A stretch of 25,134 bases of DNA from a virus. Each line of letters opens with the position of its first letter. The first letter of the stretch is position 1. This document shows, one piece after another, positions 7,382 to 21,679 of this stretch. The notes under the pieces were generated by a model. The model was not told where the DNA came from and did no database searches. It was given only the letters and a program-made list of their open reading frames with translations. The position numbers and the translations under genes were made by a program. The stretch is from the IMG/VR virus record IMGVR_UViG_3300022602_004013, positions 1 through 25,134 of that record. One strand, given 5' to 3'.

Positions 7382-7777
7382 ATGCAGAACAAGTTCCTAG
7401 CGGAAGATTTGAGGAAGATAGCTGATCAGATCAATAACATAGCCGAGGCAGATGCCGCACCCGCTGCGAACACACCGGCTGATCCGGCTGCAGCGGATGC
7501 CAAGGCAACCGCTGACGTGACCGATCTCATGACGCATGAGAAGAAGCCAACCAAGCTGACGGGAACGCTTGCCGTTAAGAATTTGGCTCAGCTGTTGGGC
7601 ATAGAGAACAGCACGCTCTTCGCCGCGGCATTCAACAACCTAAGGCAGGGCAAGCTTCCCAGCAACACGGCGCAGATCAGAGAGCTAGCCATAGCCTTTG
7701 ACAAGCTGCTGGCGGCTGATGCGAGCACAACCGGCAAGGTCCTGAACCAGCTGCGTCGCATCCATAAGTCTAGCTAA
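7382..7777 (+). CDS. Small virion-type protein with possible prohead-cleaved N-terminus
   Basis: The 131-residue protein lies alone on the + strand, with its own late promoter and a GGAGAA ribosome site. The first 22 residues form an amphipathic helix (MQNKFLAEDLRKIADQINNI) ending in I-A-E|A, identical to the cleavage site of the T4 internal protein targeting peptide, with a second match (L-A-E|D) at residue 8. Residues 23-50 are an Ala/Pro/Asp-rich linker like those in packaged proteins. The C-terminal half (residues 60-131) is a compact helical domain (GTLAVKNLAQLLGIENSTLF). Its stop is two bp from the stop of the convergent helicase gene. A capsid-internal protein is the best guess; no homologue comes to mind. 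Confidence 0.65.
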   Translation: MQNKFLAEDLRKIADQINNIAEADAAPAANTPADPAAADAKATADVTDLMTHEKKPTKLTGTLAVKNLAQLLGIENSTLFAAAFNNLRQGKLPSNTAQIRELAIAFDKLLAADASTTGKVLNQLRRIHKSS

Positions 7778-7779
7778 CA

Positions 7780-9201
7780 TCACCTGCGTATCAAGCTTCG
7801 CAGGCTATCCAGTTCCTTGGCGCTGGTCGCCTGCGTGGGCTGCACCGCCGCTGGTGCATCCTTCTTCGCCGCGGTTGAGTTCTTCCTGCGCAGATCATTG
7901 AACACATCAGCACCACTGTTGCCAGCGGCTATCACGCTTTGATCCTCCTCGAGATCAAATATGCGCAGCGTGTTTGGATCAAACCCCAGATACACCTTGC
8001 TTCCAACACCAGAGCTTGAACGGGTCTTGAGGAACTGTATCTGATACTGCCCACGTTCCTTCATGGCCGCGCTTGCGAAGATCGATATCACGTTGTCAGC
8101 CGTCTGGATCTTGGAGATACCACCTGCTATCATGCTGTGATCGTGCTCCTGCTCCTGCGTCGCCGATCTGTTCAGCTGTGATGCCGTCAGGCACACCATG
8201 TTGCGCTCGACGGCCAAGCCGCGAAGCTCCTCAGCCACGAACTTGTCCTTGATGAACAGGTCGCTGGGGTTGATCTTCTTGTTGTTGGGGAACAGCAGAT
8301 CCAAATAATCCACCACCAACACATCCGGCTTGCGTTTGGTCTCTATCTCATAGTTCTTGAGATACGCCTTGATGTCGTTGCAGGTGCTGCCCTGAGGCAG
8401 CTGGCGGACGTGCAGCAGTCCCGACTTGCGCTGGGCGGCCTTGACCTTGAGCTCCACGTTGTCCAGGTTGCGGAAGATCTCCTTGGTGCCGATGTCAGTT
8501 AGCATGGAATCCATGCGCATGGCAGTGAGCTCCTCCGAGAGCTCAAGGGTGATGTAGATCACGTTGAGCCCTTGCCGCACCATGTTCAGCGCTTGGTTCT
8601 GCAGGAACAGCGATTTACCAACACCAGACCCAGCGCACCAGATCGTGATCTCACCTCGGTTGATACCGCCATATAGCTTGTCATCCACGGTCTTCCATCC
8701 GGTGGTCATCTGCCCGTTCTTGTCCTTGATCCTCAGCAATCGGGCGCGAGGATCGTCGAAATAGTCAGTGCCAAGATCGCTCTGCAGGCTGATCAGTATG
8801 GCCTCGCGCACACGCTTCTCGACCTCACCATAGTTGCCGTGCTCTATGAGATCCACGGATTCGGTCACGGCCAATGCCAGCGCACGGTTCTTGCAGAAAC
8901 CCTCTATCTCATCGAGGAAGCTGTCCTGATGCTGCGGTGCTATGTCGTCAATCTTGTTGAAGCTGCCTCCGGTCTCGGCGTTGACCTGCTCTATCTTCGG
9001 CAACACCCTGTATTCGTTGGCATAGCCGAGTATGAAGCGAACGGCTGGCCTAAACTTGTTCACGAAATACTTGGCATTGAGGATGTTCTGGCAGCGTGAG
9101 AATATCTCATCGCTGCTCAGCATTATGTCTATCAGCAGCTTCTGCTTGTCCTCGTTGTAATCTATCGTCTGCTGTTCTTCTTCCCTGTCGTTGCGAGCCA
9201 T
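7780..9201 (-). CDS. 41: Replicative DNA helicase, DnaB/T4 gp41 type
   Basis: This 473-residue RecA-fold helicase is close in length to T4 gp41 (475). It would unwind the fork 5'-3' as a hexamer on the lagging strand. Walker A is GSGVGKS (191-197), Walker B is VLVVDYLDLL with D298, and motif H4-like QLNRSATQEQEHDHSMIAGG follows. The N-terminal 150 residues are helical, as in the DnaB N-domain. I chose the ATG at 9201; a TTG at 9207 is the longer option and has better spacing to AGGAAG, so the start is not certain. The gene follows the nucleotidyltransferase-cupin gene by 7 bp and the primase gene lies just upstream of that, so the two primosome proteins are in one operon. Confidence 0.93.
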   Translation of the reverse strand: MARNDREEEQQTIDYNEDKQKLLIDIMLSSDEIFSRCQNILNAKYFVNKFRPAVRFILGYANEYRVLPKIEQVNAETGGSFNKIDDIAPQHQDSFLDEIEGFCKNRALALAVTESVDLIEHGNYGEVEKRVREAILISLQSDLGTDYFDDPRARLLRIKDKNGQMTTGWKTVDDKLYGGINRGEITIWCAGSGVGKSLFLQNQALNMVRQGLNVIYITLELSEELTAMRMDSMLTDIGTKEIFRNLDNVELKVKAAQRKSGLLHVRQLPQGSTCNDIKAYLKNYEIETKRKPDVLVVDYLDLLFPNNKKINPSDLFIKDKFVAEELRGLAVERNMVCLTASQLNRSATQEQEHDHSMIAGGISKIQTADNVISIFASAAMKERGQYQIQFLKTRSSSGVGSKVYLGFDPNTLRIFDLEEDQSVIAAGNSGADVFNDLRRKNSTAAKKDAPAAVQPTQATSAKELDSLRSLIRR

Positions 9202-9208
9202 GTGCAAT

Positions 9209-9988
9209 TCACTTCCTCGTTATGTCATCTTCCACGCAATCCTCACCATATTGGATCTCGATCAGCCTCAGCGGTTCACTGCCCTCGTTTACCAGCTGGT
9301 GCCATTGGTTCGTCTTTATCCATAGATGCTCGTGAACATTATAACTACCTATCAGCTCCGCGTCAGTGCTGGAATCCAATGTGTACACGGTCGCCTCACC
9401 GTGTGCCACGAACCAGAACTCTCCGCGCTTGCCGTGCCGCTGCATGCTGAGATGCTGCCCTGGTGCCACCGTCAGCTCCTTGACCTTAACCTCTCGGCCA
9501 TCCTGATGCAGAACGCGATAGTATCCCCATGGGCGCAGTATTTTCGGGGTCTTCCACTCCTGCAATATCCAACTGCTGCTGTTGGCTTTAGATGTGCCAC
9601 CAACGCCATAATGGAACGTGATGTTACCTAGCTCAGCCGCGAGCATCTGCTCCGGCGTGTTTCCGGCACCCCTGTCTCCGCCGTTGGCGAAGATTATCTC
9701 AGCATCAGGGTTGAACATCCTCAGCGTTCGTATGGCATCACAGCTGGTGTCGTCGCTGTCATCAAAGCCCGTGAGAACCTGATCAACACCTTTGATCGCT
9801 CCGATGACAGATTCGCGCTCGTTGATGTTCATGAAAGGCCTTGACTTCTTACGGGTCAACCAGGCATCGCTGTTGAGACCGACCACCAATCTGTCACCTA
9901 GATCTTTCGCCGCCCTGAGGTATTCGATGTGACCGCTGTGAACGGGATCAAACCCACCTGTCACCAACACTATCTTTATCTTCCTCAT
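9209..9988 (-). CDS. Nucleotidyltransferase-cupin fusion (cytidylyltransferase-like plus mannose-6-P isomerase-like cupin)
   Basis: Residues 5-147 are a cytidylyltransferase-type domain with GGFDPVHSGH (HxGH, H17/H20) and NSSSWIL near 137-142 in place of the usual ISSTxI motif. This fold transfers CMP or AMP to a phosphorylated sugar or alcohol, as in GlmU-unrelated HldE/TagD families. Residues 150-259 are a cupin close in pattern to the C-terminal domain of type II mannose-6-phosphate isomerase/GMP synthases: RPWGYYRVL, QRHGKRGEFW, H230 and IEIQYGEDCVEDDI. The ATGA overlap at 9985-9988 couples it to the primase, and the helicase follows. Similar fusions exist in marine T4-like phages as far as I recall. 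The substrate is unknown; surface-sugar or nucleotide modification are both possible, and the cupin may only bind sugar. Confidence 0.88.
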   Translation of the reverse strand: MRKIKIVLVTGGFDPVHSGHIEYLRAAKDLGDRLVVGLNSDAWLTRKKSRPFMNINERESVIGAIKGVDQVLTGFDDSDDTSCDAIRTLRMFNPDAEIIFANGGDRGAGNTPEQMLAAELGNITFHYGVGGTSKANSSSWILQEWKTPKILRPWGYYRVLHQDGREVKVKELTVAPGQHLSMQRHGKRGEFWFVAHGEATVYTLDSSTDAELIGSYNVHEHLWIKTNQWHQLVNEGSEPLRLIEIQYGEDCVEDDITRK

Positions 9989-11004
9989 CTGAACATCCTC
10001 CTCTTAACACCTATCTGTAGATGGCTGGTAGTCCTAGCAGCGATGGCGCTGCGTATGGTGAACAACCTGCCGTATCTCTTGGCCGCATCAGCTGCATCCT
10101 TGATGTCATCCTCCCACTCAGGGAAGCTAACGCTCCATCCGTGGTGCAAGGCCGCATCTATCAACCCTTGGTTGGTGCGCTGCCTGTCAGGCACGATTAT
10201 CTTCTCCTTGTCGGAGCTGTTTAGCCACGCTATCTGCTCCTTGCTGGGTTCGCTGCCTAAGGTGGCTACCCCCGACAGCGCGATGGCGTCAAACGGTCCT
10301 TCAGCCACCAGCACGTATCTCCTGCCGGGTGTGCTCAGCGCATCACAGTTGAACACGTATCCCGGTTGCAACGGGCTGTTGTAATACCTAGGCACACCTG
10401 ACGGCGGTGTGCCAGCATACCTAGCCGTCCATCCGACTATCTTGCTCCTGTGATAGAACGGCACTATGACACGCTTGTCCATATCGTGCTTGGTGCTGGT
10501 GCTCCAATGGTAGTCCCAGCCGTTGAGTATCGCATCCCCTCTCGAATCCATGTATTCCATGATGCCCAGGAAGCCCTCTGGTATGTCATCGCCCTCTATC
10601 ACGCTCTCGAAAGGTATCGCGTGCTCGGGCAGATCAACCTCCCTGAACTCGGCCGTGAACCGTATGTCGGGTGCGACGGCATGCTCCGCCGTGCCATCCA
10701 TGCGCTGTTGCAGCAGCTCCATCTTGGATCGCTGTATCTCCTCGTCAGAGATGCCCATCCAGCGCATGAGGTTCTCGAAGTTGCGGCTGATGGATACCCT
10801 GTCGAACACGGTCTTGAATCCGCAGTTATAGCAGTTATAGGCTATGGCGCCGTCTGGTGCGAACAGATAGTTGCCGCGCGATCTGGTGTCTTGCCTGTGC
10901 CCGCGGTGATGGCAGCATGGAGAGTTGCAGGTTATCCAACCCAGTGAGCTGGACCTGCGCCTCGCTGGCAGGTGTGATGCGACTATCTCGTGTATCAACG
11001 GCAT
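9985..11004 (-). CDS. 61: DNA primase, T4 gp61 type (zinc ribbon + Toprim)
   Basis: The 339-residue protein makes RNA primers for lagging-strand synthesis with the gp41 helicase. An N-terminal zinc ribbon is visible (C26, C30/C31, then C58xxC61), and a Toprim domain has VLVAEGPFDAIALSG (E235, D239). The second Toprim acidic motif reads VPDRQ: D273 is present, but the position that is usually Asp is Q275. The C-terminal segment SVSFPEWEDDIKDAADA...YGRLFTIRS is typical of primases in this phage group. The start at 11004 has no clear Shine-Dalgarno. The upstream virion-type gene ends 20 bp away. A weak sigma70-like pair (TTGTAT, 17 bp, CATACT, minus strand, about 11049-11017) could give separate early expression. 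Confidence 0.9.
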   Translation of the reverse strand: MPLIHEIVASHLPARRRSSSLGWITCNSPCCHHRGHRQDTRSRGNYLFAPDGAIAYNCYNCGFKTVFDRVSISRNFENLMRWMGISDEEIQRSKMELLQQRMDGTAEHAVAPDIRFTAEFREVDLPEHAIPFESVIEGDDIPEGFLGIMEYMDSRGDAILNGWDYHWSTSTKHDMDKRVIVPFYHRSKIVGWTARYAGTPPSGVPRYYNSPLQPGYVFNCDALSTPGRRYVLVAEGPFDAIALSGVATLGSEPSKEQIAWLNSSDKEKIIVPDRQRTNQGLIDAALHHGWSVSFPEWEDDIKDAADAAKRYGRLFTIRSAIAARTTSHLQIGVKRRMFR

Positions 11005-12836: not shown

Positions 12837-13451
12837 TCAACTGCCAGTCATCATTATAGCATCTCTGGCAGCCTGTTCAACCAGAATGTTGGCGTGGACG
12901 TATACCAGCATCGCATAGCTCACGGCATGCGCCTTCTTAAACACGTAGGCATCCCCGTCCCTATGGGTCCAGATCTCATCCGCGATGCTGTCAAACCCCT
13001 GCGCGATGCATCGCTGCTGCAGATGCTTCTTGCCAGGCCTTATCATCGCCAATATCATGGCGATGTGTTCTATGCTGCGAGGTCTCAGCTTGGCGGTCAG
13101 CTCGCCATAGTTGCCTAGATGGAACAGCTCCGAGACGAACCCTGGGTGCTCAAACAGGCTCCAATCCAACGGGCGATCCATCAGCTCCAGCAGATGCTGC
13201 TCATTGCGCACCATGTCATAGATGCTAACGTTGAGCATGTCTATCTTGTACATGCCCCTGCGTTCGGCCTCCTCGTAGTCAAGGCTGCATTGGTCGGTCA
13301 CCGGATCGATCGGCACGGCGTGGAAGTACACGCCTGTGTTGTGCCTCGTGATCCTGCCGTTCTTGATGATGCTGGCTGGTATGTGCTGCATGCCCTCCAG
13401 TGCCTTGGAGCGATCAGCGAAATCTATGTCGATGTCGCCACGATCAAGCAC
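12837..13451 (-). CDS. Minimal DNA polymerase III alpha (DnaE/PolC)-like protein
   Basis: At 204 residues this is a very condensed relative of the roughly 1,160-residue bacterial replicase subunit. DIDIDF (D6, D8) matches the DnaE PDxDxDF motif, HNTGVY (37-42) matches HAGGVV, YKIDMLN (D71) matches the KxDFLG third catalytic Asp, LRPRSIEHIAMILAMIRPGK (122-141) matches the finger-region LxP...RPG motif, and FKKAHAVSYAMLVY (171-184) matches FNKSHSAAYALVSY. PHP, tau-binding and OB domains are absent. It starts with GTG, overlaps the upstream gene by 8 bp, and has AAGGTGG before the start. All three metal-binding Asp are present, so catalysis cannot be excluded, but most of the palm and fingers is missing. 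I recall relatives in marine T4-like phages. The role is unknown. Confidence 0.78.
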   Translation of the reverse strand: MLDRGDIDIDFADRSKALEGMQHIPASIIKNGRITRHNTGVYFHAVPIDPVTDQCSLDYEEAERRGMYKIDMLNVSIYDMVRNEQHLLELMDRPLDWSLFEHPGFVSELFHLGNYGELTAKLRPRSIEHIAMILAMIRPGKKHLQQRCIAQGFDSIADEIWTHRDGDAYVFKKAHAVSYAMLVYVHANILVEQAARDAIMMTGS

Positions 13452-15052: not shown

Positions 15053-15112
15053 GTTATGGGGACCCAACCCCGTAGCCCTAGAACGGCAACAGAGGAGAAA
15101 ACAAATGGGACG
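15053..15112 (+). repeat. 60-bp direct repeat, copy 1 (leader and start of 15105 gene)
   Basis: This copy is identical to 15520-15579. It runs from GTTATGGGG through the leader, the AGAGGAG ribosome site, the ATG and the first codons (ATG GGA CG). A GGGG...CCCC hairpin near its 5' end (GGGGACCCAACCCC) may structure the leader. Confidence 0.95.
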
Positions 15113-15494
15113 TCCAATCACCAAGAACGCGATAGGCATGACACCGCCTCCGCCCAACACCAACGTGCTGCTGATATATGGCAACGTCGGCGGGACGGTC
15201 GGCTGGTACGACATATTACGCCAGGTTGGCAGCAACAAATACATGGTCAGGACCTGGTCAGAGACCAGCCCCAAGGTGTCGGGCATCATAACCCTGACCA
15301 ACGGTGTCACCGATAACCCAGGGGACGGATACATACATTTCAGATATCCTGACAGCAGCGACGGCTATGCGGCCAGGATAAACGATCACACCCTGAGGGA
15401 TTTCAAGGGAGGAGAGTTCCCATGGCACATGGAGCTGTATGGGGATCACGTTAATAGCGTTTATGTGGACTCTAACTGGTACTATCAGAACTAA
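15105..15494 (+). CDS. Short tail-type structural protein, MGRP family
   Basis: The 129-residue protein begins MGRPITKNAIGM, an N-terminus I recall from T4-like phage structural proteins that start MGRP. The body is beta-rich: GNVGGTVGWYDILRQVGSNKYMVR, VSGIITLTNG, GDGYIHFRYPD, then DGYAARINDHTLRDFKGGEFPWHM. These pieces align with the two ends of the next gene product, which carries an extra repeat domain between them. AGAGGAG lies eight nt before the ATG, within the 60-bp repeat. It is probably a small virion or fibre-associated protein. The gene may be an undecorated, shorter paralogue of its neighbour. Confidence 0.75.
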   Translation: MGRPITKNAIGMTPPPPNTNVLLIYGNVGGTVGWYDILRQVGSNKYMVRTWSETSPKVSGIITLTNGVTDNPGDGYIHFRYPDSSDGYAARINDHTLRDFKGGEFPWHMELYGDHVNSVYVDSNWYYQN

Positions 15495-15519: not shown

Positions 15520-15579
15520 GTTATGGGGACCCAACCCCGTAGCCCTAGAACGGCAACAGAGGAGAAAACAAATGGGACG
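15520..15579 (+). repeat. 60-bp direct repeat, copy 2 (leader and start of 15572 gene)
   Basis: This copy is identical to 15053-15112, with a unit-to-unit distance of 467 bp. Homology at the DNA level stops three bases into the third codon set (ATG GGA CG). Confidence 0.95.
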
Positions 15580-16678
15580 CCCTATTAAGAAGGTATACAT
15601 CGGAAACGCGGCGACCTCGGGTCAACAGATCGAGGGATATGCGTGGACGGCAGGCGATAGCCAAGCGCGCCTGAGCTACATAGTCAAGCAGAAGAGCACC
15701 AGCACATACGTGATGGCCAGCGTCGATGGCACGGGTGTGCCAGGCGGCGGTCCGGTTCAGCTGGTCAACGGTCCGATCACGCAGGCCGGACAGGGTAACA
15801 TCATGGTCACGCCATACGGCGCCCAAGGTGTTGGCGCTGCAGCAACCGCTAACCTAAAGGTCGTGACGGTCAGCACCACGGTCAACGGCGACGGTAACGT
15901 GACGGGACACAACTACAACGTTGGCAGCTTCGTGCAGGTCAACGGCGGCACCAGCAACACAGGACCTGCCAACGTGCAGATCGCTGCGACCACGTGGAAC
16001 GCTGTGGGTGTCTCAAACGCTGGAACCAGCTACGTGTCAGGCGACTTGCTGACCTTCAGCTTCGCGGGTTGGACAACCAACGCCGTGGTGCAGGTCAACA
16101 CAGTCAACGCCACGGGTGCCATCAGCACCGTGAGCATAGTCAACAGCGGCGTGTTCACCGCGACGACCATACCAAGCGGTCCATTCGCGGCATCATCCAA
16201 CACCAGCGTGGCTGGTAGGAACGCCACGCTCAACGTGCAGTTCGGCATCTACAGCTTTGGTACGATCGTATCAGGCGGCGATTACACCGTTCTACCGGCG
16301 AACCCGGTCAGCTTCACCTACAGCGGCCCAGGAGGCGGCGCGGGTGCGAGGGCTAACCTCACATACGGCATCAGCACCGTGCATGTCACGGCAGGCGGCG
16401 CTGGATACGAGATACCCCCAGCGGTGACGTTCTCGGCTGGCAACGGAACGGCACACACCGTACTGAGCGGCAGCAGCGTTGGCAGCGTGGTGGTCGATAA
16501 CGCAGGCAACAACTACACCAGCATACCAACCGTGAGGATCGCCGAGGTGACTCCAACGGCTTATGCACACAAGATAACCGATCGCATCGTTTACACGTTC
16601 GACGGCAAGCAGTATGAATGGCTGATGACCGGCCAGACGCTGCCAGGATATGGCTGGGCACACATCAAGTCCCAGTGA
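15572..16678 (+). CDS. Tail-type structural protein with beta-repeat domain, MGRP family
   Basis: The 368-residue protein starts MGRPIKKVYIGN. Residues about 28-85 resemble the short paralogue upstream (LSYIVKQKSTSTYVM...VQLVNG...GQGNIMVTPYG). Residues 88-320 hold about five imperfect repeats of roughly 20-45 residues with a V-x-N-x-G-x-x-Y-T-x-x-P-x-V core (VGVSNAGTSYVSGDLLTF; VSIVNSGVFT; IVSGGDYTVLPANPVSF; VHVTAGGAGYEIPPAVTF; VVVDNAGNNYTSIPTVRI). Residues 325-368 return to the paralogue pattern (AHKITDRIVYTFDGKQYEWLM). The composition is Gly/Thr/Val/Asn-rich and nearly Cys-free, as in phage fibres and adhesins. It has the same late promoter and leader as its neighbour and a terminator after the stop. 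It probably decorates the virion or binds a host surface. Confidence 0.8.
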   Translation: MGRPIKKVYIGNAATSGQQIEGYAWTAGDSQARLSYIVKQKSTSTYVMASVDGTGVPGGGPVQLVNGPITQAGQGNIMVTPYGAQGVGAAATANLKVVTVSTTVNGDGNVTGHNYNVGSFVQVNGGTSNTGPANVQIAATTWNAVGVSNAGTSYVSGDLLTFSFAGWTTNAVVQVNTVNATGAISTVSIVNSGVFTATTIPSGPFAASSNTSVAGRNATLNVQFGIYSFGTIVSGGDYTVLPANPVSFTYSGPGGGAGARANLTYGISTVHVTAGGAGYEIPPAVTFSAGNGTAHTVLSGSSVGSVVVDNAGNNYTSIPTVRIAEVTPTAYAHKITDRIVYTFDGKQYEWLMTGQTLPGYGWAHIKSQ

Positions 16679-19944: not shown

Positions 19945-19966
19945 CGCATCGACGATGTTGCGTCAA

Positions 19967-20995
19967 TCATGCCACACGCTTGTGGCAGTTCTTCTCGACG
20001 AAGCGCACCCAGTTGTTGGGCATGGCCTTGCGCAGATCGCTGATCTTGAGCACCATGCGCAGGCTGAGCTCGCGCAGCTTCTCATGGTTATCCATGATGT
20101 AACCAACCACCTCGGACTTCTCCTCATCAGTGAAGCCGTAATCTCGCATCAGATCGTTGCGTTCGACCACGCTCTTGATGTGGATCAGCTTCTCGCGGGC
20201 GCCATCGACCCCGATGTCCATGTAGTGGCAGCGGCTCACGATGGCCTCGAGATGATTGCTGATGCGTGCGCTGCGGATGTTATCAAACTTCACGTTGGTG
20301 ATGAAGATGATGCCGCCTTGATACTCGAAACTTGTGGGGATGTCATTGCGCTGCAGGTGATAGCTGCGGGAGTTCCAGCTGATGCGGCGCGTCTTCTTGG
20401 AATCCAACGCCGCCTTGAGGATGTTGAGCGCGTCCTCATCATAGAGGATGCTGTCGCAGTCGTCAAACACCAGGACCTGGCCCTCGTCCTTGTAGTGCCA
20501 AAGCTTCTCGTAGAGCATGCTGGCGCTCATCGCACCGCTCACCACATCATACATGCTACCCTTGCCATTGAGGCGACCCAGCATATCCAGGCTGCGTGCC
20601 AGCGTGTTGACGATGGTGTGGCTCTTGCCGATGCCGGCGGGTCCACTGACCACCAAACCGCGCACGATGTTGCTGGCCACGGCATCGGTCATCTCGCCGA
20701 GGATGTTGAAGGTCTCGATCAGCTCCTTGCGGATCTGCTCGTCGGTGCGCTGAACCTCAGGCTGCTTGAACTCGATGGCCAAACCAGCATCGCCAGCATT
20801 GCGGATGTGTGCCTCATCCTGCACGTAGATGCGGTTGCGGCCGGCACGCAATCCTGGGATGCTGTCGCCCTCGACCGTGACATACACGCCGTCCCTGTCG
20901 CGTTTCTTGTCCTCAAGCATCTTGGCCGTGATGTCCTGCACGGCGATTCCACCGCGTGTGCGACCTTGCGTAACGTGAACATAGCTGATGGACAT
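19967..20995 (-). CDS. AAA ATPase conserved in phages, role unknown
   Basis: This 342-residue protein has a single AAA module: Walker A GPAGIGKS (118-125), Walker B VLVFDDCDSIL (174-184), sensor 1 IIFITNVKFDNI with N234, and SNHLEAIVSRCHYMDI (246-261), which may carry an arginine finger. A C-terminal helical lid follows (ELSLRMVLKISDLRKAMPNNW). The N-terminal 100 residues are unlike gp44, and the SRC clamp-loader motif is not in the usual context, so I do not call it gp44. The family is widespread in tailed phages without an assigned function; helicase loading or another remodelling job would suit its position between uvsW and the UvsY-like gene. A strong sigma70-like promoter and GGAGAG site lie upstream. 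Confidence 0.85.
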   Translation of the reverse strand: MSISYVHVTQGRTRGGIAVQDITAKMLEDKKRDRDGVYVTVEGDSIPGLRAGRNRIYVQDEAHIRNAGDAGLAIEFKQPEVQRTDEQIRKELIETFNILGEMTDAVASNIVRGLVVSGPAGIGKSHTIVNTLARSLDMLGRLNGKGSMYDVVSGAMSASMLYEKLWHYKDEGQVLVFDDCDSILYDEDALNILKAALDSKKTRRISWNSRSYHLQRNDIPTSFEYQGGIIFITNVKFDNIRSARISNHLEAIVSRCHYMDIGVDGAREKLIHIKSVVERNDLMRDYGFTDEEKSEVVGYIMDNHEKLRELSLRMVLKISDLRKAMPNNWVRFVEKNCHKRVA

Positions 20996-21035
20996 GCAAT
21001 CTCTCCGTGTTGCCGTTGCACTGCTCTATGGGCAC

Positions 21036-21063
21036 ACAATAGCACAAGCACGATGCATGTCAA
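21036..21063 (-). promoter_or_regulatory. Sigma70-like early promoter for the AAA ATPase gene
   Basis: On the minus strand TTGACA (21063-21058, a perfect -35) and TATTGT (21041-21036) are 16 bp apart, 41 nt before the ATG at 20995. The rest of the 146-bp gap, 21064-21141, is AT-rich with no clear further element. Confidence 0.75.
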
Positions 21064-21141
21064 CCGGATTCTAACCATCATAAGGTTATAAATTATCCAG
21101 CATAATCAAGAAGTTAATATATGGAATGGCGTCGAAAATTC

Positions 21142-21606
21142 TCATCCTCGGGTGTTGATGTGCGCATCCTCCATGCCCACAACCCTGAGTCGAATTATGT
21201 TTGATATACTGAACGATTTCTGTTCAAGCCCTTTGATAAGGCCGAGATACCTGTTCCTGACCAGCCCCACCTCGTTTATCAGCTCAGCCATGCTCACGAT
21301 GTCAGACTCGCCATCTATGTATTTCTCTATGGCCCTATCCGTCAGCTCGCGGTTGTACCTCTCCAGATACTTGCGATAGTGGTCTGATCGCATCTTGTCA
21401 TATTTGATGTTGAGATGCTTGAGTATGGCCTCTATCTCCTGCAGCTGCCCAAACCTGTGGGCCATGATGCCAGACAGCTCCTGCGCGTTCTTCTCTATGT
21501 TGCCGAGGATCCTGGATTCAGGCTGTGCGCTGGTCAGCTCATGGTTATAATATTCGATGGCAGACGCTACCTCGGCTAGATCATCGACCACCCTGTTGTA
21601 CCACAT
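21142..21606 (-). CDS. UvsY-like recombination mediator candidate
   Basis: This 154-residue, mostly helical, charged protein starts at ATG 21606 (MWYNRVVDDLAEVASAIEYY), chosen because the 19 residues before it come from the hairpin at 21630-21653. T4 UvsY (137 residues) forms a helical oligomer that loads UvsX onto gp32-coated ssDNA. Similarities are the size, the basic middle (HYRKYLERYNRELTDR) and the C-terminal pattern LVRNRYLGLIKGLEQKSFSI followed by SNIIRLR and VGMED, which echoes UvsY's final helices. The match is not strong enough to be sure. Placement two genes after uvsX supports the idea. Confidence 0.5.
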   Translation of the reverse strand: MWYNRVVDDLAEVASAIEYYNHELTSAQPESRILGNIEKNAQELSGIMAHRFGQLQEIEAILKHLNIKYDKMRSDHYRKYLERYNRELTDRAIEKYIDGESDIVSMAELINEVGLVRNRYLGLIKGLEQKSFSISNIIRLRVVGMEDAHINTRG

Positions 21607-21629
21607 GCCATATCCCTTGCCGTAAAGAT

Positions 21630-21653
21630 GAGGTGGGCCCGTAAGCCCACCTC
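21630..21653 (-). terminator. Hairpin between the small acidic gene and the UvsY-like gene
   Basis: A perfect 9-bp stem (GAGGTGGGC / GCCCACCTC) with a six-base loop lies 27 nt after the stop at 21680. The minus-strand sequence after it is ATCTTTAC, a weak U-tract, so it may attenuate rather than stop transcription. Confidence 0.55.
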
Positions 21654-21679
21654 GATTACACACTCATGCGTGCGCCGTG

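Follow-up and report, generated by a model that had tools for sequence, protein, structure and literature searches.

A nucleotidyltransferase-cupin fusion gene in a variable slot of a phage replication operon and its possible role in glycan synthesis

Introduction

Several described enzymes and gene clusters resemble parts of the gene considered here. HldC and the C-terminal domain of HldE (rfaE domain II, TIGR02199; phrog_7878) are nucleotidyltransferases with the HxGH fold and motif and a GGD motif, and the same fold is found in GCT/TagD and in the Fom1 cytidylyltransferase. In type II PMI-GMP (TIGR01479), a mannose-1-P guanylyltransferase is followed by a phosphomannose isomerase (PMI) cupin. 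In cyanophages, LPS/O-antigen clusters with nucleotidyltransferases of the HIGH superfamily, cupin isomerases and glycosyltransferases are carried as phage cargo and were proposed to act on the O antigen (Iyer et al. 2021, PMC7824862). The DNA-pentose modules of RB69 and Thanatos have sugar-activating genes beside replication genes; in RB69, the candidate genes for UDP-arabinose are located between DNA polymerase and UvsX (PMC6024577).

The gene analysed here encodes an HxGH nucleotidyltransferase (NT) half followed by a PMI-type cupin half. It has the fold and both motifs of HldC/HldE, but it carries NGGDR where a KGGDY-like motif is expected, contains no kinase domain and has the cupin attached. 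It also shares its fold with GCT/TagD and Fom1 (Z ~15), but these have no cupin and their specificity motifs differ. The order of the two halves is that of type II PMI-GMP, whereas the NT half is of the HxGH Rossmann type and that of PMI-GMP is of the NTP_transferase type. The pairing is a variant of the known PMI-GMP logic, in which the NT half is replaced by a different fold; literature searches revealed no paper describing a fusion of an HxGH NT with a PMI cupin. In the cyanophage clusters, the NT and the cupin are separate genes, whereas here they are fused and often adjoin UvsY or primase. The siting beside replication genes is common to RB69 and Thanatos, but the modules of those phages consist of non-homologous families (SIS, NTP_transferase) together with a dCMP-hydroxymethylase-like gene.

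Results

Domains and conservation of the fusion

The window, that is, the whole stretch of 25,134 nucleotides that was analysed, is the 25-kb viral record carrying the gene, with nothing larger behind it. The fusion gene is an intact ORF with an ATG start that encodes 259 aa followed by a stop codon (Table 1).

Table 1. Position of the fusion gene, its domains and motifs, and the neighbouring genes in the window.
Feature	Positions	Strand	Evidence
NT-cupin fusion gene	9209..9988	-	ORF, Pfam, PHROGs, conservation
HxGH nucleotidyltransferase half, residues 1-146	9551..9988	-	PF01467 4.9e-12; rfaE_dom_II 7.3e-20, under its cut-off; HldC fold Z 15.4
HxGH motif H17-S-G-H20	9929..9940	-	H17, G19, H20 invariant 41/41
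Second NT motif K134-A-N-S-S-S139	9572..9589	-	K134, S137-S139 invariant 41/41
PMI-type cupin half, residues 147-259	9212..9550	-	PF01050 3.5e-23; Thermococcus PMI Z 16.4, rmsd 1.7
Cupin metal motif Q183-x-H185-xx-R188-x-E190	9419..9442	-	Q183, H185, R188, E190 invariant 41/41
Cupin metal ligand H230	9299..9301	-	invariant 41/41
DNA primase, upstream gene, stop overlapping the fusion start by 4 bp	9985..11004	-	phrog_47 2.7e-26
DnaB-like helicase, downstream gene	7780..9201	-	phrog_19 1.6e-71
UvsY-like gene, 11 kb from the fusion here	21142..21663	-	phrog_231 3.8e-16

In the Pfam search, CTP_transf_like (PF01467) covered residues 9-103 with 46.6 bits against a gathering cut-off of 21, and MannoseP_isomer (PF01050) covered residues 149-258 with 82.4 bits against a cut-off of 23.6. 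By this match, the HxGH motif and the second, basic/SSS motif, the NT half, which also contains the GGD motif, belongs to the HxGH nucleotidyltransferase superfamily; by its own match, the metal site (Q-x-H, E, H) and a conserved R, the other half is a type II PMI cupin. Scores against the curated families lay below their cut-offs: 71.3 bits for TIGR02199 (equivalog cut-off 181.5), 77.7 bits for TIGR01479 through the cupin part only (equivalog cut-off 372.95) and 50.6 bits for TIGR01518 (cut-off 165.4).

None of the 41 distinct full-length sequences had a change in the two histidines of HxGH, in K134, in the SSS run or in the five cupin residues listed in Table 1. Loss of H17 or H20 in relatives, which the first-pass annotation had named as an argument against catalysis, was not found in the family.

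A protein scan yielded 80 viral loci, approximately 55 with the full fusion at 48-63% identity and approximately 25 with the NT half only. A profile scan yielded at least 591 matching stretches in viral contigs. The pN/pS ratio against two genes from the same slot was ~0.3, a qualitative figure since dS was saturated; dN/dS rows involving L123 were out of frame and were left out. Because of the number of matching viral stretches and this ratio, it was concluded that the ORF is a real gene and not a chance one. The viral relatives obtained in both scans also back the statement of the first-pass annotation that other T4-like phages have fusions of this kind.

The AlphaFold2 model of the fusion had a mean pLDDT of 91 and a pTM of 0.66, which leaves the mutual placement of the two domains unsure. 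In this model, the cupin half matched the Thermococcus phosphomannose isomerase, aligned over 102 residues (Table 1). The NT half matched the Thermoplasma LPS-core protein 3glv (Z 16.3, rmsd 2.2, 121 residues), HldC (rmsd 2.2), the Fom1 cytidylyltransferase (Z 15.1) and GCT (Z 14.8). Among the known systems compared, HldC/HldE domain II was the best curated and structural match of the NT half, nearly tied with 3glv; because these fold matches are so close, the structural model does not pick the NT substrate. The cupin aligned with the type II PMI of cyanophage S-SCSM1 over the metal motif and the C-terminal signature GE..ED-DI.R, with Q-x-H, R, E and H all kept. One cupin searched against the PDB by phmmer gave no match, and a profile of the cupins found PMIs. 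The domain assignment and the sugar-nucleotide chemistry proposed from the sequence are thus backed by Pfam, curated-family and structural matches.

The primase-helicase junction

The primase stop and the fusion start share ATGA at 9985-9988, and the fusion stop (TGA, 9209-9211) is separated by 7 bp from the helicase ATG (9199-9201), as had been stated; a TTG located 6 bp further upstream of this ATG may be an alternative helicase start. Sister phages with the same gene order were gathered by scans with the helicase and primase of the window. In the 40 readable junctions (helicase 66-83% identical), the full fusion was present in 6, which represented two distinct forms besides that of the window, the cupin alone in 8, the NT alone in 2, a dead remnant in 1 and a short spacer only in 23. 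In more distant relatives, the junction DNA had no match to the fusion gene. Because its content varies from fusion, cupin, NT or remnant to nothing, the junction is a cargo slot. The remnant (L132:3290-3949) encodes 219 aa and is still open and primase-coupled, and its HxGH motif and cupin metal ligands are gone. Further copies of this catalytically dead version were sought and none was found, so it looks like the decay of one copy.

The gene had been described as locked in the primase-helicase operon and made with the primosome. The first description is wrong, since the position is this phage lineage's own and is often empty even there. The second holds for the window phage and a few sisters only; as a rule it fails, since this junction is a slot for changing cargo and the gene lies by late neck genes in one phage group.

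The halves were also found without each other. A 216-kb cupin-only phage had no NT and a 155-kb NT-only phage had no cupin, both at E 1e-4; a 167-kb NT-only phage had a separate cupin elsewhere in its genome. Therefore, the NT and the cupin can work apart, and their fusion is no proof of consecutive steps. One and the same junction is found with the whole gene, with either half, with a dead remnant or empty, a natural series that allows the coupling between the two activities to be tested.

Three other features of the window were noted. A 131-aa ORF (7382-7777, +) with no Pfam match lies opposite the replication operon and has counterparts at the corresponding position, similarly oriented, in many sister phages. 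A 204-aa DNA polymerase fragment (12837-13451, -; phrog_11778) resembles the C-terminal part of the Pol III alpha subunit, in line with the split minimal Pol III that has been described in jumbo phages (PMC7824862). ORFs at 15105-15494 and 15572-16678 (+) start with MGRPI-K; sister phages have several similar MGRP-starting ORFs there, which are possibly structural paralogues.

Gene context in other phages

Gene context was recorded for 137 full-length loci, which were not dereplicated, so the counts lean to well-sampled phages. UvsY was found within 4 kb upstream of the fusion in 84 of 132 loci. The gene directly downstream was GT8-like in 54 of 105 loci and KpsC-like in 9, a glycosyltransferase thus following in 63/105; some glycan-type gene was located no more than 1.5 kb downstream in 69/105, and none was recognised there in 36/105. 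Within this census, primase stood just before the fusion only in two added loci of the window's lineage, and in most other phages the fusion was located in the UvsX/UvsY region. In a 364-kb phage, for example, uvsX-uvsY was followed by the fusion and by GT8-like, KpsC-like, FkbM and further GT-like genes, just before a DNA helicase. In cyanophages S-SSM7 and P-TIM68, NT-only homologues were located between gp43 and uvsX. In one group of loci (L044-L053), gp14-like and neck genes directly follow the fusion, which is itself preceded by a long gene and by FkbM-like/GH130-like genes.

Among the neighbour families, c33 was a clear FkbM methyltransferase, and c6 gave a sub-threshold GT8 match (E 2.5e-4). 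A 12-row model of c7 (pLDDT 87) was KpsC-like: its first 14 PDB matches were all KpsC/KrkA Kdo transferases, a remote similarity with TM ~0.5. Judged by eye, c42 and c52 appear GT-A-like, c19 GH130-like and c20 FkbM-type, assignments that found no confirmation in Pfam or PHROGs.

Within the 25-kb window, no gene was recognised as a glycosyltransferase, so the glycan link for the window phage is by homology. A plus-strand ORF (19955-21091) considered as a candidate is probably spurious; it has no Pfam match and overlaps a 342-aa minus-strand ORF (19967-20995) with the Walker A motif GPAGIGKS. The latter ORF is located between UvsY and the DNA helicase, in a region that contains GroES/GroEL-like genes in one sister phage (L212) and a glycan island in another (L211) and is therefore apparently a second cargo slot. 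In near-complete phages of the window's lineage, GT2 genes are found elsewhere in the genome; because these are also present in an empty-slot phage (G534), they do not track slot content.

The SAR86 counterpart

In the order SAR86, 68 of 121 genomes matched the fusion, approximately 60 of them at full length. Among 398 sampled Pseudomonadota genomes, a SAR86 genome alone matched at E 1e-40, and SAR86 was the only bacterial home found in the search within Pseudomonadota. Read by eye from the sequence, the SAR86 copies often adjoin genes for UDP-glucose dehydrogenase, GalU, GalE, Wzz, glycosyltransferases and CMP-sugar synthetase. In two SAR86 loci (L086:1047-1847 and L087:7980-8780), the fusion lies between metK and ahcY, genes of the S-adenosylmethionine cycle, and overlaps both.

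In a tree of the NT domain, one clade (96/99) combined two SAR86 rows with every phage row but the distant S-CAM1 outgroup; the remaining SAR86 rows fell outside it. The NT-only form required at least two changes on this tree. It is therefore likely that phages and SAR86 have exchanged the gene and that the cupin was lost repeatedly; the direction is unsure because the root falls on a very long branch. SAR86 as the host of the window phage was dropped as unproven, the window having 54% GC and the SAR86 loci ~30-36%.

Discussion

From the domain make-up, active-site conservation, slot variation and glycan neighbours in relatives and SAR86, we infer, with a probability of about one half, a bifunctional sugar-activating enzyme that is carried as mobile cargo and supplies an NDP-sugar (or polyol) for glycan synthesis, most likely at the host surface. 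The HxGH domain would move NMP from an NTP onto the phosphate of a phosphosugar or phospho-polyol, and the C-terminal metal cupin would isomerise or epimerise the sugar before or after activation. The resulting NDP-sugar would feed phage or host glycosyltransferases that make or alter an oligosaccharide. The acceptor would most likely be LPS or capsule on the host surface, altered at an early stage of infection, the benefit being, for example, the blocking of rival phages. As cargo, the gene would occupy the variable primase-helicase slot here and a place beside UvsY, heading a glycosyltransferase island, elsewhere. Use in host-surface sugar chemistry was one of two proposals of the first-pass annotation and is the one favoured, since glycan genes are the neighbours both in phages and in SAR86. 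Against this reading stands the fact that the PMI product (an aldose-6-P) is unlike the substrate of an HldE-type NT (a 1-phosphate); the mutase, or kinase plus phosphatase, needed between the two steps was not found here. The reading is also weakened by the window having no recognised glycosyltransferase, by the phages with one half alone, by the 36/105 loci with no glycan gene recognised just downstream and by the GT2 genes of an empty-slot phage.

The enzyme is widespread in phages and uncharacterised, and its activity could be assayed biochemically in a straightforward way. Its presence in both phages and SAR86 offers a starting point for studying the surface glycans of this abundant marine clade and the way in which phages alter them. 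It also corrects a tempting inference, since a gene inside a replication operon need not serve DNA.

A mutase would not be required if the cupin interconverted a ketose and an aldose phosphate and the HxGH domain capped the same terminal phosphate with NMP, giving a terminal-carbon NDP donor. A partial precedent comes from Campylobacter, where CDP-6-fructose is formed by an enzyme that carries the annotation of another Pfam family, PF01128 (PMC10918830). This route is considered rather unlikely; if true, terminal-phosphate capping would be a donor-making route common to aquatic phages and SAR86.

Equally doubtful is the transfer of the activated sugar onto phage structural proteins instead of the host surface. 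The group with the fusion next to gp14-like and neck genes is consistent with glycosylation of the virion, which could use the same genes as the synthesis of a host-surface glycan. However, most copies of the fusion lie in the replication/recombination region, and the chromosomal copies of SAR86 cannot serve virions.

It is less probable still that the NT makes CDP-glycerol, a CDP-polyol or a CDP-aminoalcohol and that the cupin has another role. The folds and sequences nearest to the NT half include GCT, ECT and the Fom1 cytidylyltransferase, and in one SAR86 genome (L104) the neighbours, as read from the sequence, resemble glycerol-1-phosphate dehydrogenase, an NTP transferase and a HAD phosphatase. 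However, among curated families the NT half matches rfaE domain II best, the cupin matches PMI, and glycan genes dominate the neighbourhoods of the fusion.

An auxiliary role in central metabolism, with the PMI-like cupin shifting the fructose-6-P/mannose-6-P balance of the host and the NT being secondary, appears just as improbable. Such a role was given to the S-SCSM1 PMI (PMC9602691), and cupin-only copies occupy the same primase-helicase slot, but conservation is just as strict in the NT half as in the cupin, and many phages have the NT half by itself.

The other use proposed in the first-pass annotation, the supply of an activated sugar for phage DNA bases, as proposed for the RB69 arabinose module, is poorly supported and not favoured, even though the fusion or its NT half recurrently has replication or recombination genes as neighbours (primase and helicase here, UvsX/UvsY in many phages, gp43 and uvsX in S-SSM7 and P-TIM68). 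PF00303 (dCMP-hydroxymethylase/thymidylate synthase) was absent in every tested record with the fusion, the NT or the cupin, which included the complete S-SSM7 and P-TIM68, most carrier records being fragments; in a control, T4 gp42 was detected by PF00303 at 3.4e-16, and the sole match among the tested records was in a phage with an empty slot. This absence speaks against a route through hydroxymethylcytosine and against no other. Further points against DNA modification are that the fusion has no homologue in RB69 or T4, that it is missing from many sister phages whose replication genes are the same, and that the multi-gene GT and FkbM islands are a better fit to oligosaccharides. Two proteins annotated as phosphoheptose isomerase, RB69 ORF051c (L119:1709-2095) and S-CAM1 SXBG_00218 (L084:9095-9418), were considered as cupins and rejected; by eye, they look like small HAD-type phosphatases with no Pfam hit, and their annotation is probably wrong.
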